Assembly (NCBI GenBank): GCA_024399065.1
Contig: JAKSIB010000031.1
Location: forward strand, 1 to 42,278
DNA: 42,278 nucleotides
Source of the DNA: Fibrobacter sp.
Lineage (GTDB): Bacteria > Fibrobacterota > Fibrobacteria > Fibrobacterales > Fibrobacteraceae
Direction of reading: 5' to 3'
The translations under genes and the position numbers were made by a program. How positions within the stretch are numbered: the stretch's first letter is position 1; each line of letters starts with the position of its first letter. A model generated the notes under the pieces. It had not been told where the DNA came from, searched no databases, and saw only the letters and a program-made list of their open reading frames with translations. This document shows, one piece after another, positions 2,111-9,759 of the stretch.

Positions 2111-2485
2111 GTCAACTACGCACCGCATAAATGCGGTGAGCTTGTAAAGCCTTGACAAGTTTGCACAAGCAAGGACTTACATACGATTGGGCGGTTGACT
2201 CACGCCCTGCCCATCAAGTATGCGTAGTCATACGAGTTGGGATGGTTTGACTGCATTTCAGCAATCCGCTATACTCATAATGCATCTTGAATCCGTTATG
2301 TATGTGGCTACCGAATCCAATCAAACTGTTTTCTCGCCAAGCCACGAGCCTCTTTTGGACTTTTAGATGAGTGCCTTTTATTTCAGCAAGACTTTCAGCG
2401 TTATGCACAATATAGTTTATATTTTTCTAGTTGGCAAGTGGGAATTCCTAAGCCACCCTAAAGGGTGGCATCTTCCTGCCCACTA
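2111..2485 (-). mobile_element. IS200/IS605-like element without tnpB (element 2, MITE/PATE-like)
   Basis: This covers most of the 2036-2563 gap. Reading the minus strand, a left-end hairpin (2452-2469) with TTGCC arms is followed by about 270 bp without a convincing gene. It ends in a perfect hairpin CACCGCAT/ATGCGGTG (2121-2138) and then GTAGTTGAC. That is close to the GTAGTTCAA end of elements 3 and 4. A 64-codon frame (2214-2408) starts inside it but has no recognised domain. It looks like a shortened element that kept both ends and an internal transcript but lost the transposon protein genes. Boundaries are approximate. Confidence 0.55.
2409..2437 (-). promoter_or_regulatory. Candidate promoter inside element 2
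   Basis: Minus strand TTGCCA (2432-2437), 17 nt, TATATT (2409-2414). The -35 is formed by the TTGCC arm of the left-end structure. A transcript from here would cross the element to the right-end hairpin near 2121. A TATAAACT match (2414-2421) overlaps the spacer and may be coincidental. Confidence 0.45.
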
Positions 2486-2563
2486 TTTTTGTGAATATAC
2501 TGAAGAAATACTATTAGATATGATGCGTGATGAACGTACAGTCCGTGACGACGACGTAATAAT

Positions 2564-2737
2564 TTAATCGTCGTACATGCCTTCGGATTCCATCTCGATC
2601 ATGTTCTTGTCACTATACGGCGAATCAAAGTCAAGCTCAGCATATTCAGAATCACTATCGTCAGCAATATCTTCAATAATGTCTGTTTCAGGTTCATCAT
2701 ATTCAGGTGTTTGTTGATTATGTGTAGGATCAATCAT
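2564..2737 (-). CDS. Small acidic protein, 57 residues, unknown
   Basis: The frame starts MIDPTHNQQ and is extremely acidic (repeated D/E with S and Y, ending MYDD). The SD-like GAGG 8 nt upstream lies in the 3' arm of the terminator hairpin that ends the upstream gene, and the ATG directly follows its T-run. Translation would therefore depend on read-through and on opening the hairpin. Small acidic phage proteins often act as DNA mimics or inhibitors, but nothing in this sequence shows that. Function unknown. Confidence 0.55.
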   Translation of the reverse strand: MIDPTHNQQTPEYDEPETDIIEDIADDSDSEYAELDFDSPYSDKNMIEMESEGMYDD

Positions 2738-2739
2738 AA

Positions 2740-2768
2740 AAACTACCTCGGTGTTTACGAGGTAGTTT
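2740..2768 (-). terminator. Rho-independent terminator overlapping the next gene's ribosome site
   Basis: A perfect 11-bp stem (2740-2750 with 2758-2768) with a 7-nt loop. On the minus strand it is followed by TTTTT and then the ATG of the 57-residue ORF. It lies 7 nt after the stop of the membrane-protein gene at 2776-3276. Confidence 0.75.
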
Positions 2769-2775
2769 ATTGCAG

Positions 2776-3276
2776 CTACTTGCCGTATTTTTTCAGTTCG
2801 TCTGCAGTAAACAGCGGAATCCCATTCGTAGGAACGTAATTCAGAACCCCGTTGTCATCTGTTATGCAGAGGTCCGGATACAAAGTCTTGACAGACTTCA
2901 GGTAGAAATCATGCCAATCGCCATTGTATTCAATATAAAGGAAATTGTCAGGATACCGGTCCGGATTTTCTGTCAAATCCTTTACAACAAGCGAAATAAT
3001 GATAGACTTTCGCTTCTGATACAGCACATCAAATTCAGTATGAAAATTCGGCTTGTTAAGTGCAGCCATAGCGATATTCTCGATACCCGGCGGGTTACCG
3101 AAGAAGACTACATGGCGTCCAAAACGCATGCCATCCCGCAATTTAGGCCACCGACGGGCAATGCGCTTCCTCAGTTCATCTTCGAAGCTGATTTCATTAC
3201 GGTCGGCCTTCACGGTCTTCCAGACATAGATCCCGAATACAATCAAGAAACAGCTTACAACAATTGCATATACCAT
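2776..3276 (-). CDS. Membrane-anchored hypothetical protein
   Basis: 166 residues. The N-terminus is a single hydrophobic segment (about residues 2-19, YAIVVSCFLIVFGIYVW) followed by a basic, charged soluble part, so it is probably anchored in the inner membrane with most of the chain on one side. No cysteine lipobox and no recognised catalytic motif. It starts 3 nt after the DNA ligase stop and is followed at once by a strong terminator, so it is probably the last gene of the ligase transcript. Function unknown. Confidence 0.7.
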   Translation of the reverse strand: MVYAIVVSCFLIVFGIYVWKTVKADRNEISFEDELRKRIARRWPKLRDGMRFGRHVVFFGNPPGIENIAMAALNKPNFHTEFDVLYQKRKSIIISLVVKDLTENPDRYPDNFLYIEYNGDWHDFYLKSVKTLYPDLCITDDNGVLNYVPTNGIPLFTADELKKYGK

Positions 3277-3279
3277 AAG

Positions 3280-5364
3280 TTACTCCATGAGTTTGAGGAA
3301 ATCCTGAAGGGTGCTCGGCGTGTACACATCAATATGAACACCGGATGCTTTCAGGTCGTTAATGGCAGCTACCTTCTTTGGGCCGGCATTGTCACCAAGC
3401 AGCACGATATTAGTCTTCTTGGAAATACCTGAGCAAATTGTACCGCCGTTAGCCACAACAAGTTCCTTGAACTTATCACGTTCCAGTGCAGTGAACACCC
3501 CGGTCATAATGCATACCTTGCCAGCGAGCTTAGCACTCGTCACAGTAGTTTCCTTGACGCTTTGGGCGATGCCGTTATCGACAAAGTACATCACAGTATC
3601 GGTATGTGAAGAAATCCACTTGCACAGGCGAGAAACGATAAGCTTAGACACACCCTTGACTTCAGCCTCTTCGCCAAGAATAGATTCCATACGATCACCC
3701 ATAGCGCATACTGCTGACAACCCACCAAGATGATTAATGCAGTCGGCAATTACAGGTGAAGCCTGATGGCCTACGCCCGGGACAGAGAATCCTTCGATCA
3801 GCTGATGCAGGTAATTCTTTCTACTGGCGTCAATGGCAGCAATAAGCTTGCCAGCACCCTTCGCTCGCAAATTACCGATGCCAATCACATCTTCAGCGGT
3901 CAAACGATAAATGTCGTCGAACTTAGATACCTTACCAGCGTCAACCAGCGATTCAATGATGCTTTCTCCAAGCCCACGGATATTCATGACACTTCTGGAA
4001 GCAAAATTTACAAGCTTATTGACCATCTGCGTATTGCAGTCCGGGTTATCACACACCCATGCGACAAGCTTTTCACCGGATTCATTCTGGGCATTGCTCA
4101 ACTGGCCCCCGCAGAACGGGCATACCTGAGGCCTGAGATACATTTCCTTGCCTTCAATCGGCGGATACTTGGAAGCCGAACCACGCTTAATAGACACTTC
4201 ATAGTCTTCCTTACTCATTCCAGTTTCAACGCAGCGAACCAGTTCAGGAATAATTTCACCAGCCTTACGGATGACCACATGGCAACCTTTATGCAAACCA
4301 AGATATTCAACAAGGTCCCAATTATGCAGGGAACAGCGCTGAACCGTCGTCATGGCCAATGACACCGGCTTGACAATGGCAACCGGCGTGATAGCGCCCG
4401 ACATACCAATAGATTGCTCAATGTCAATCAATTCGGTAGCCTTTTCTTCCGGGGGGAACTTGTAAGCCTTATAGAAATTCGGCGCCTTGGCAGTATACCC
4501 CATCTTTTCATGGAAAGACTTTTGGTTTACCTTGATCACAATGCCGTCGATAGCATACGGCATATTAAAACGGTTTTCACGGAGTTGTTCGGCAATTTCC
4601 TTGAACTGCTCCAGCGTCACGACCTTGCTAGGAGGAACATTGAAACCCAGATTCTTCAAATGTTCAATGTCACCACTCTGGGTGTCAGACTGCGAACCAC
4701 GGCATACAATGTAAGATATGAACGTAAGCTTACGACGTTCCACCTCGTACGGATCAGTCAGTTTCATTGAACCAGTGGCGCCATTGCGGGGATTCGCAAT
4801 CTGCTTCTTCCCGGCATCAAACAGAGCCTCGTTATACGCTTCAAAGTCGTCATACAGCCAAACAACTTCGCCACGCACCTCAAATGTACCCTTGACGTCA
4901 ATAGCCTTCTGAACCCCCTGAATACGCACGGCATTGGCGGTAATGTCGTCACCGACATTATCAACACCTCGGGTGACGGCTTCATAAAGAACACCATCCT
5001 TATAATTCAGGGCAAGTCCACCACCATCCAGCTTGTATTCCAGTTCAAATTCATCGACACCATACGTGTCATGGACAGTCTGAACCCACTGGACAGCCTC
5101 ATCAATGCCATTGGCATTGGTAATCGAAATCATAGGAACTTCATGTGCGACCTTCCGGAATCCACCGTTGGAGCCGTCAATCACATGGCGTGTCGGCGAT
5201 GTTTCAAGGATCATGTCAGGATTTTCAAGTTCATACGCCTTGATTTCACGGTAACACGAATCATACACCTCATCGGTAACATCAGGTGTACCGTTGGCAT
5301 ACGATTTTGCCCATTCGGTCAACGTATCGCAAAGTGTCATGTATTTGCCGTATGTAATAGCCAT
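3280..5364 (-). CDS. ligA: NAD-dependent DNA ligase
   Basis: 694 residues from the ATG at 5364 (AGGAG 5 nt upstream), close to the length of bacterial LigA, so it appears complete. In order: the NAD-binding Ia-like region (PDVTDEVYDSCYREI...SPTRHV), the adenylation domain with EYKLDGGG (K111 is the probable AMP-accepting lysine), RGEVV and NPRNGATGSMK, an OB fold, a four-cysteine zinc finger (CPFCGG...CDNPDCN), helix-hairpin-helix repeats and a C-terminal BRCT domain (GKVCIMTGVF...VVANGGTICSGISKKTNIVLLGD). It seals nicks using NAD+ and probably serves phage DNA replication. It has its own sigma-70-type promoter. A complete LigA with BRCT is uncommon in phages. Confidence 0.96.
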   Translation of the reverse strand: MAITYGKYMTLCDTLTEWAKSYANGTPDVTDEVYDSCYREIKAYELENPDMILETSPTRHVIDGSNGGFRKVAHEVPMISITNANGIDEAVQWVQTVHDTYGVDEFELEYKLDGGGLALNYKDGVLYEAVTRGVDNVGDDITANAVRIQGVQKAIDVKGTFEVRGEVVWLYDDFEAYNEALFDAGKKQIANPRNGATGSMKLTDPYEVERRKLTFISYIVCRGSQSDTQSGDIEHLKNLGFNVPPSKVVTLEQFKEIAEQLRENRFNMPYAIDGIVIKVNQKSFHEKMGYTAKAPNFYKAYKFPPEEKATELIDIEQSIGMSGAITPVAIVKPVSLAMTTVQRCSLHNWDLVEYLGLHKGCHVVIRKAGEIIPELVRCVETGMSKEDYEVSIKRGSASKYPPIEGKEMYLRPQVCPFCGGQLSNAQNESGEKLVAWVCDNPDCNTQMVNKLVNFASRSVMNIRGLGESIIESLVDAGKVSKFDDIYRLTAEDVIGIGNLRAKGAGKLIAAIDASRKNYLHQLIEGFSVPGVGHQASPVIADCINHLGGLSAVCAMGDRMESILGEEAEVKGVSKLIVSRLCKWISSHTDTVMYFVDNGIAQSVKETTVTSAKLAGKVCIMTGVFTALERDKFKELVVANGGTICSGISKKTNIVLLGDNAGPKKVAAINDLKASGVHIDVYTPSTLQDFLKLME

Positions 5365-8036: not shown

Positions 8037-8276
8037 TTATCGTTCCAAAATGATGAAATTCGAGACCTGATGAATCAAGGTGTTGTCATTGCATTTGACT
8101 GCGTAGCCATCCTCTTCACGCAGGACATACCCATCACACTCAAAATCGCAGCCAATAAATTTCACATGCACGGGTTTTTCATGCCACGCATAAGTTGACG
8201 GAGCGTCGCCTATATCAACATTACCGCAAGACACCATCCCCAATGCACAAATAGCAATCAGTAAAATCTTTGACAT
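8037..8276 (-). CDS. Small predicted lipoprotein
   Basis: 79 residues from the ATG at 8276. An N-terminal signal sequence MSKILLIAICALGMVSCGN contains a good lipobox (GMVSC), so the mature protein would start at a lipidated cysteine. The remaining 60 or so residues contain three more cysteines. It starts 1 nt after the thymidylate synthase stop. Small phage lipoproteins often act in lysis (outer spanins) or superinfection exclusion; the nearby lytic transglycosylase makes a lysis role possible, but nothing here proves it. Confidence 0.7.
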   Translation of the reverse strand: MSKILLIAICALGMVSCGNVDIGDAPSTYAWHEKPVHVKFIGCDFECDGYVLREEDGYAVKCNDNTLIHQVSNFIILER

Positions 8277-8277
8277 A

Positions 8278-9759
8278 TTATACCGCCACCGGAGCTGAAA
8301 GTTTTCCTTGACATACATACCCCTTCAATTCGAAATCATTGTAATGCCAATCAAATATAGACCAGTCATCGCCTACATTCGTAATCTCGATTTCAGGCAG
8401 GGTTGACGGAGTACGGGACAACTGCTCATCTACTACGTCCATGTGGTTCTTGTAAATATGGACATCATCAAGATGGCCGATAAGATATCTAGCCTTCAAC
8501 CCGGTCTGCTTGGCGATTAGAGTCAGTAGCATACCATACGATGCGATATTGAACGGAAGCCCAAGAAATGTATCTACACTACGCTGGAACCAGCACAGGT
8601 CAAGATATTCGCCGTCAGACAGAAGGTGAAAGCCGAAATGACACGGAGGCAAGGCCATCTGGTCTAGCTGGCTCGGATTCCACGCCATCACGATCATACG
8701 ACGGTCGGTAGGATTTTCAGACAATTTGTTCACGGCATCTGCGAGCTGGTTCACCGGCACAGGATGTCTATACAATTTTCCGTCAGATACAGTTTCAACA
8801 CGATACCCGCATTTTGTCTTACGATTCTTTTTAACGGCGTTAGCAATAACCCCACGTCCCAACTGCAGGAAATATTCTGCTTCAGAACTATTCAAGTATT
8901 CGCCAATCAGCCTATCACTCTGATCGTAAACACGAATGCAGCCGCTGCACTTCGCATACAACGCAATATCGCCATGGCTCAACCAAACGCATGTATTTCT
9001 TGAATAGCAATTGGATCCATAATAATCCTTGCCGATGTCAAAATTTGATGGCGATCTCAAAACATCGCACCACCCGTTTAGTGTAACTACATCACGCAAA
9101 AATAGCGAGAAATCATGCCAACGTTTTTCGACAAAGACGCCATTGCCACCATATAGAGGATATGAATCGCACGCCATATTATAGCAGCGTCCGATCATGT
9201 TCGCCCATACTCGTCGCATACGCTTCAACAGCTTAACCCCATACGTATCGTTGAACTTAGTAACGGCGTCTACGTCTCCTACATAGCCAATTCCATAGAC
9301 AGTAGGACGATATGTGTCCTCGGCCTGATGGCTACAAACATACGTATCGGACTCCTTGTCCACTATTCGTGGGGACACTTCGATTACCGATGCACGAGTT
9401 CCGTGGAAACTAGACCATTGATACCCGTATATCAAGCCCAGATCGGTTTCATTGGCCATTTTTAACTTAGTTTCATCATCAGTCGCATAGGCAACTTTAC
9501 GTGGGTTGCACCATTCATTCCAAATTTTTGATCCTCTACTAGAAAGCCATGACTTATCGGTAATACCCCTGATGAACATTTCCAGTTCAGCAAAGATACT
9601 CTTTGGCGGCATCTTCTTGGTAGTCAGCAAAGGGAACCCGTCTCGCATGTCATGCTTAAACATGGCACCAGAAATAGAATAGGTATCCACCCCAGTTCGG
9701 TTGGACTTGAGCGTACCATTATTCCTCACTTCACGCAAAATCGACAAATAGGACTGCAT
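8278..9759 (-). CDS. thyA: Thymidylate synthase with a large in-frame insert
   Basis: 493 residues, against about 265-290 in the usual ThyA. The N-terminal part (1-120: SNRTGVDTYSISG, FPLLTTKKM, ETDLGLIYGYQW) and the C-terminal part (about 336-493: TDRRMIVMAWNP, ALPPCHFGF with catalytic C373, FQRSVDTFLGLPFNIASY, APVAV) together make a complete ThyA of normal length. Between them lie about 215 extra residues resembling a homing-endonuclease-type protein, listed separately. No stop or frameshift breaks the frame and all visible catalytic motifs are present. The enzyme methylates dUMP to dTMP using methylene-tetrahydrofolate and pairs with folA downstream. GAGG lies 4 nt before the ATG. Confidence 0.93.
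   Translation of the reverse strand: MQSYLSILREVRNNGTLKSNRTGVDTYSISGAMFKHDMRDGFPLLTTKKMPPKSIFAELEMFIRGITDKSWLSSRGSKIWNEWCNPRKVAYATDDETKLKMANETDLGLIYGYQWSSFHGTRASVIEVSPRIVDKESDTYVCSHQAEDTYRPTVYGIGYVGDVDAVTKFNDTYGVKLLKRMRRVWANMIGRCYNMACDSYPLYGGNGVFVEKRWHDFSLFLRDVVTLNGWCDVLRSPSNFDIGKDYYGSNCYSRNTCVWLSHGDIALYAKCSGCIRVYDQSDRLIGEYLNSSEAEYFLQLGRGVIANAVKKNRKTKCGYRVETVSDGKLYRHPVPVNQLADAVNKLSENPTDRRMIVMAWNPSQLDQMALPPCHFGFHLLSDGEYLDLCWFQRSVDTFLGLPFNIASYGMLLTLIAKQTGLKARYLIGHLDDVHIYKNHMDVVDEQLSRTPSTLPEIEITNVGDDWSIFDWHYNDFELKGYVCQGKLSAPVAV
8755..9399 (-). mobile_element. In-frame homing-endonuclease-like insert inside thyA (HNH/RCY-type plus NUMOD1-like)
   Basis: These are ThyA residues about 121-335. The stretch VYGIGYVGD...RVWANMIGRCYN...YPLYGGNGVFVEKRWHDF...FDIGKDYYGSNCYS...TCVWLS matches the pattern of small phage proteins with G-V-G-Y, W-x-x-M-x-x-R-C-Y, Y-G-G/c-x-x-V-x-x-x-W-x-x-F and D-K-D...G-N-x-x-Y-S-x-x-T-C motifs (AP2/HNH-like mobile-gene relatives). 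Next, CIRVYDQSDRLIGEYLNSSEA...GVIANAVKKNRKTKCGYR resembles the NUMOD1 helix-turn-helix of homing endonucleases. No intein signatures (N-terminal Cys block, C-terminal His-Asn) and no evident group I intron core are seen. Confidence 0.7.

Follow-up and report, generated by a model that had tools for sequence, protein, structure and literature searches.

A homing-endonuclease domain in the reading frame of phage thymidylate synthase, probably tolerated without splicing

A homing endonuclease in an essential gene is generally expected to rely on an intron or an intein to spare its host. Here we describe an HNH-type domain, RCY, that lies inside the thymidylate synthase (ThyA) chain of a phage-like contig and of other phages. 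Like the T4 td intron with its endonuclease I-TevI, and the phage relatives of this system, the insert combines a homing endonuclease aimed at phage thymidylate synthase genes with apparent co-conversion of the flanks. I-TevI, however, is a GIY-YIG nuclease in a group I intron that occupies another thyA site and is removed at the RNA level; one locus (L045, see below) carries both. The insert belongs to the phrog_2081/I-HmuI-type HNH homing endonucleases, with which it shares the DNA-binding module (I-HmuI_NUMOD-like, NUMOD1). Known members are intron-encoded or free-standing, such as the phrog_2081 nucleases that reside in DNA polymerase introns (PMC11878797), whereas the ThyA insert lies within the chain of its host enzyme.

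Unspliced homing endonucleases have been described in other essential genes. In nrdA/mobE of Aeh1 and gene 43 of phage 25 the function of the host gene is preserved, as is predicted for ThyA, but the host protein is made as two polypeptides, while ThyA stays one chain (PMC2988022). In fungal mitochondrial rps3, the coding sequence of a LAGLIDADG endonuclease is fused in frame with that of an essential protein and, as in ThyA, brings no splicing element with it, although the mitochondrial setting, the nuclease family and the host protein are all different (PMC7902536). The ShiLan and Pacc40 inserts of mycobacteriophage DNA methylases share more features with the ThyA insert: they interrupt the gene of a phage enzyme with an HNH-bearing segment that is open in the frame of the host without being an intein or an intron (ShiLan lacks both), their distribution is disjunct, and they are proposed to remain in the protein (PMC11855218). 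Their HNH is read in a frame other than the host's, and what the host frame encodes is mostly disordered; in contrast, the HNH-type domain of the ThyA insert is in the ThyA frame, and so is not a hidden HNH of the ShiLan type, and its fold is predicted with confidence. The ThyA insert also differs from both in occupying two sites of one enzyme across unrelated phages. A lone LAGLIDADG domain in the same methylase family is likewise an in-frame insertion with no detectable intein or intron, but it is not RCY/HNH, is apparently vertically inherited and has no described homing footprints (PMC11855218). Precedents for unspliced inserts that bear a nuclease exist (ShiLan and the lone LAGLIDADG), and RCY inside ThyA is a variant of these. 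A literature search confined to papers outside subscription found no published description of RCY domains inside ThyA.

A thymidylate synthase with a nuclease-type insert

The window, by which we mean the whole stretch of 42,278 nucleotides analyzed, is a phage-like contig (C31) within a 3.8 Mb assembly. It encodes a dihydrofolate reductase near thyA, an NAD-dependent DNA ligase and a Dda-like helicase. A small open reading frame (8037-8318, minus strand) with a lipoprotein-like signal (LLIAICALGMVSCG) overlaps the 3' end of thyA.

The thyA reading frame (Table 1) starts with ATG and contains no internal stop, exactly at the position, of the size and with the open in-frame insert given in the initial annotation, which had been made from the DNA letters alone. 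The Pfam family Thymidylat_synt matches the protein in two stretches (E = 1.3e-83), and 16 out of 16 key residues checked against E. coli thymidylate synthase (TS) are present, including the catalytic cysteine. The protein qualifies as a TS by both its fold and its catalytic residues, and its two ends do form the full-length ThyA that had been proposed.

Table 1. Coordinates of thyA and its parts in the window
Feature	Position	Strand	Basis or remark
thyA ORF, thymidylate synthase with in-frame insert	8278..9759	-	493 aa; stop codon 8278-8280
ThyA N-terminal part, residues 1-120	9400..9759	-	ThyA profile match residues 1-127; alignable to E. coli TS
Insert, residues 121-335 (approx.), site A between YGYQWSSFHG and VNQLADAV	8755..9399	-	Missing in E. 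coli, L001 and L007 (insert-free relatives); HNH PHROG matches
Low-confidence stub, residues 139-146; extra module here in relatives	9322..9345	-	pLDDT <50; alignment of L183, L021, 015DV002
RCY/HNH-like core, residues 163-265	8965..9273	-	PHROG matches, alignment; helices 163-193, strands 240-261 (model)
Gly243 codon (GGC); in relatives the near-invariant first Asp of the DKD motif	9031..9033	-	Alignment
Ile265 codon (ATT); in relatives a near-invariant Asn	8965..8967	-	Alignment
I-HmuI-like/NUMOD1-like DNA-binding module, residues 270-327	8779..8952	-	I-HmuI superposition and profile match
ThyA C-terminal part, residues 336-493	8281..8754	-	Second Pfam stretch, residues 335-493
Catalytic Cys373 (= E. 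coli Cys146)	8641..8643	-	Key-residue comparison with E. coli TS

The middle of the chain, absent from the aligned ThyAs of E. coli and of the insert-free relatives, matches three PHROG families of HNH endonucleases, phrog_2081 best (E = 3e-29), then phrog_953 (4e-14) and phrog_374 (4e-13). A profile built from 33 relatives of the insert matches the homing endonuclease I-HmuI (1u3e, E = 2e-5), and family members match I-HmuI_NUMOD-like (1e-16) and NUMOD1. In a model of the insert only (pLDDT 89), residues 150-207 of that model superpose on I-HmuI 1u3e at 1.6 A over 54 residues (Z 7.4, VIA-align), and the same DNA-binding module also superposes on the I-TevI DNA-binding domain (Z 4.9). From the PHROG and I-HmuI/NUMOD matches together, the insert therefore consists of a nuclease-type RCY core and an intron-nuclease DNA-binding module. 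By its profile and its DNA-binding module it is a homing-endonuclease domain of the phrog_2081 type, in agreement with the reading of these ~215 residues as an AP2/HNH 'RCY' domain followed by a NUMOD1-like unit. The insertion point also differs from the td intron site, as had been pointed out.

Among solved HNH domains, the RCY core found only a very weak structural match, the SaCas9 HNH region (Z ~2.2), which is too weak to lean on. Because these matches are so weak, the putative catalytic role of D243, D245 and N265 comes from their conservation. We do not claim a new fold for the core, and the lack of a strong PDB match was not taken as novelty.

The insert might instead have been an extension native to ThyA and not related to mobile nucleases, as the initial annotation had allowed; its matches to the HNH and I-HmuI families speak otherwise. 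We considered the insert of L. casei-type TS as such a native extension (a 316-aa TS turned up among the sequences) and set it aside because it leaves the nuclease similarity unexplained.

A full-chain AlphaFold2 model based on 30 aligned relatives, a check suggested at the outset, is confident (pLDDT 92.9, pTM 0.91), with only residues 139-146 disordered. The modelled ThyA part superposes on E. coli TS over 264 out of 264 residues at 1.3 A, so that the TS fold is intact and the insert is looped out. Given such a tolerant TS loop, ThyA is expected to remain functional although unspliced, judging from its sequence and the model.

Catalytic residues are retained in nearly all fused ThyAs. The exceptions are those of Enterococcus, L024 and L025, which may be relatives with a changed substrate. 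Fused ThyA-like proteins altered at key positions (R21 and the one that follows the catalytic Cys) were seen at L011, L019, L024 and L025; these four are perhaps dUMP/dCMP hydroxymethylase-like.

Copies, insertion sites and stages of decay

Searching phages with tblastn, we found RCY inside ThyA in Bacillus phage 015DV002, Vibrio phages D69, D181 and D148, Klebsiella phages KP13-7 and phiKp_21, and Enterococcus phages A2 and 163, and a degenerate version of the insert in the thyA of Krischvirus. Further loci came from two scans of viral contigs and one scan of bacterial genomes. In all, 48 open reading frames, near-identical contigs counted, join ThyA and RCY in a single frame, in addition to loci L183-L187. 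A six-frame search of all RCY-bearing loci, which made no requirement for a single reading frame, yielded 43 distinct copies of RCY next to or within ThyA, a number that is not a prevalence figure since the loci were collected with RCY and ThyA queries. None of the 43 is in another frame. A single reading frame with both ThyA parts was scored automatically for 38 of them; the other five (the L043, L051, L053, L105 and L183 type) have the same single frame and failed only the overlap rule of the script.

Locus L093 was excluded from the 43 because its contig is partial and rearranged. There (1-2615) an RCY fragment is joined to mid-ThyA, a gap of ~1.1 kb precedes the remaining ThyA, and an upstream open reading frame resembles the end of another intron nuclease; the locus is possibly several nested elements. 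The phiKZ ThyA (L005), which tblastn listed as full-length, was dropped as a fusion: at 1501-2967 it is a thymidylate synthase with other large extra segments, which are not RCY/HNH. The same fused thyA occurs on goat contigs binned both as Bacilli and as Methanobrevibacter MAGs (L183-L185), probably a single misbinned rumen phage.

Two insertion sites were found. At site A the insert follows YGxQW and precedes the IDQ helix (the window, 015DV002, KP13-7 and D69), and at site B it lies between IWDEW and LGxVYG (Enterococcus A2 and 163, and others). When the RCY cores are placed on a tree, those embedded in thyA group together, with 5 label changes versus 31.5 in shuffles. The site B copies form one group (96/69) nested among the site A copies; from this placement, one nuclease lineage appears to have settled in another loop of ThyA as well.

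Among the 168 genomes searched in the phylum, no other carries the insert. The suggested comparison with relatives lacking the insert succeeded in part: near-identical empty alleles exist for other phages (see below), while for the window phage we found no close relative without the insert, the nearest empty ThyAs being ~53-61% identical.

The RCY family has a conserved set of residues (W..M..RC, V...W, DKD, Y, T, N). The window copy keeps most of it, but D243 is replaced by Gly and N265 by Ile, and it is the only fused reading frame with a full-length RCY core that has lost both. Its insert is 215 aa long, ~50-60 aa less than the 263-276 in L183, L021 and 015DV002; the missing part is an N-terminal module. 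L183, from a goat-rumen MAG, has the most closely related insert, and there the motif is intact; nuclease-type residues are retained in 43-45 out of 48 fused reading frames (near-copies counted). Having lost two near-invariant residues and the N-terminal module, the window insert is a member of the RCY family by descent that is probably a nuclease-dead passenger in a functional ThyA.

Krischvirus shows a later stage of decay than the window copy. Its in-frame remnant of ~130 aa has no recognisable nuclease site and evolves with a dN/dS of 0.21, versus 0.14 for the ThyA parts, a ratio by which the remnant is judged to be translated and constrained. Such remnants would be explained if, as a segment of the ThyA chain, the insert can decay only in ways that preserve the reading frame.

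Allele patterns beside the insert

Some phages that carry the insert have siblings that are nearly identical but empty. For instance, Bacillus phage 015DV002 carries it, while 015DV004 and 000TH009 are empty. On the 5' side, identity across thyA and the neighbouring genes of these phages stays at 97-100% until the insert is reached. Directly 3' of the insert, 015DV002 has ~140-195 nt that are only ~60% identical to the empty siblings, after which identity returns to 100%. This one-sided foreign tract is the co-conversion pattern that would be expected from homing.

In Enterococcus phages A2 and 163, the cassettes differ by 4 mismatches in 900 nt (99.6% identical), and the thyA flanks by 24 in 270 and 19 in 303 (91-94% identical). 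The ends of A2 are ~97% and 100% identical to the empty phage Ben, and the diverged tract adjoins the insert. Klebsiella KP13-7 and the insert-free Muenster are 88-100% identical in neighbouring genes and 40-80% identical in thyA around the insert, a pattern that homing would fit. No empty sibling of Vibrio phage D69 was found when we looked for one.

These footprints fit homing, but ordinary recombination with cassette-bearing donor phages could leave comparable traces. The occurrence of relatives in dozens of phages suggests that the embedded nuclease domains still jump between phages.

In the td gene of the Krischvirus phages Skers and JSE (L178 and L179), the thyA allele just 3' of the remnant differs from that of RB49, Phi1 and phiS, which may be a further sign of allele exchange beside the remnant. 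Separately, in Enterococcus phage 113 (L192, 1956-2687) the gene after thyA encodes 243 aa, versus 97 aa in its siblings, with an unrelated N-terminal extension.

Splicing, domestication or fold tolerance

The initial annotation had left open whether the insert is an in-frame intron, a new kind of self-removing element or a tolerated protein insert. A self-splicing intron with a reading frame that by chance continues that of both exons would not be out of place, as td is a classic case of an intron in phage thyA and RCY/phrog_2081 nucleases are known to be intron-encoded in Bastillevirinae DNA polymerase genes (PMC11878797). The proposed Rfam search nonetheless found no group I intron: at permissive settings RF00028 matched none of the inserts of the window, 015DV002 and A2, whereas the same settings detected td-site group I introns in the thyA of L015 (RF00028, 67 bits) and L045 (58.5 bits). 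We relied on permissive runs only, because at the gathering threshold Rfam missed the genuine td-site intron of L015 when run on the whole locus. In addition, coding sequence fills the insert, while the non-coding part retained by Bastillevirinae introns amounts to 350 +/- 108 nt (PMC11878797); an intron would have no need of a ThyA frame that stays open through the whole insert, as it does in all 43 copies; and the Krischvirus remnant has kept its frame at the low dN/dS given above. At L045 (IMGVR_UViG_3300011862_000001, 2138-4047), a single thyA carries an in-frame RCY at site B as well as a td-site group I intron; the separate intron splits the reading frame, whereas the RCY insert stays in frame. 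Altogether, we consider an intron very improbable. As a side observation, the thyA of L015 (Bacillus phage KKP_4048), with its td-site intron at 3055-3312, is annotated as two thymidylate synthase genes.

In-frame insertion in an essential-type enzyme is typical of inteins, and intein-borne nucleases are of the HNH or LAGLIDADG type. Still, no intein or Hint family in Pfam matched the window chain at E<=1, and in alignments inspected by eye the junction pattern of inteins (Cys/Ser start, His-Asn end, Cys/Ser/Thr at +1) is missing. The ends, TRAS...KLYRH in the window, differ among members, which bears out the remark that intein terminal residues are lacking. The RCY core, the DNA-binding module and linkers account for the whole insert in the confident model, and an intein or another self-excising protein element, for which we found no support, is in our judgement scarcely credible. 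A domesticated fusion is unlikely but deserves more attention. Here RCY would serve ThyA, for example by binding the phage's own DNA or regulating thyA, and the cassette, no longer mobile, would spread along with thyA alleles by normal recombination. The long-lived lineages of thyA-embedded RCYs in the tree, the purifying selection on the Krischvirus remnant and the well-folded domain of the window copy despite its decayed nuclease site are all in its favour. However, the almost identical cassette shared by two Enterococcus phages of diverged backbone and the one-sided foreign tract of 015DV002 with its clean 5' junction fit conversion driven by double-strand breaks better, and the nuclease-type residues kept by most fused reading frames also argue against domestication.

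A tolerated protein insert is strongly favoured by the 43 copies in the ThyA frame, the confident model and the remnant in Krischvirus that appears translated and constrained. We consider it likely that the insert is an unspliced, fold-tolerated homing endonuclease embedded in thyA, whose intact copies home and whose window copy is probably nuclease-dead in a working ThyA. The RCY/HNH core and the I-HmuI-like module sit inside the thyA frame and would be translated as part of ThyA, with a TS surface loop that accepts large insertions replacing the intron or intein as a shield. Intact copies would cut insert-free thyA in a co-infecting phage, and repair of the break would copy the cassette together with flanking thyA sequence into the cut allele. 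The window copy, with D243G, N265I and its N-terminal module gone, would represent a late stage of this cycle.

More broadly, tolerated domain insertion may be a general third way into an essential gene, neither intron nor intein, a proposal to which we give roughly even weight. The cost to the host gene would be avoided because the host fold, here the TS loop, accepts the insertion. The fused enzyme itself would deliver the nuclease, and, TS being a homodimer, two DNA-binding nuclease domains could be presented by it. Copies would pass from active (015DV002, A2, L183) through dead but folded (the window) to a constrained remnant (Krischvirus).

The whole RCY family appears to spare its host by tolerance of the protein fold alone, at two sites of one well-studied enzyme. 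With empty alleles of nearly the same sequence at hand, homing is open to direct tests, and RCY inside ThyA is an experiment of nature on how an enzyme copes with the insertion of a large domain. It would also explain many large phage proteins annotated as 'thymidylate synthase' or 'HNH endonuclease'. The homing cycle of invasion, fixation, decay and remnant would thus become visible at the protein level.
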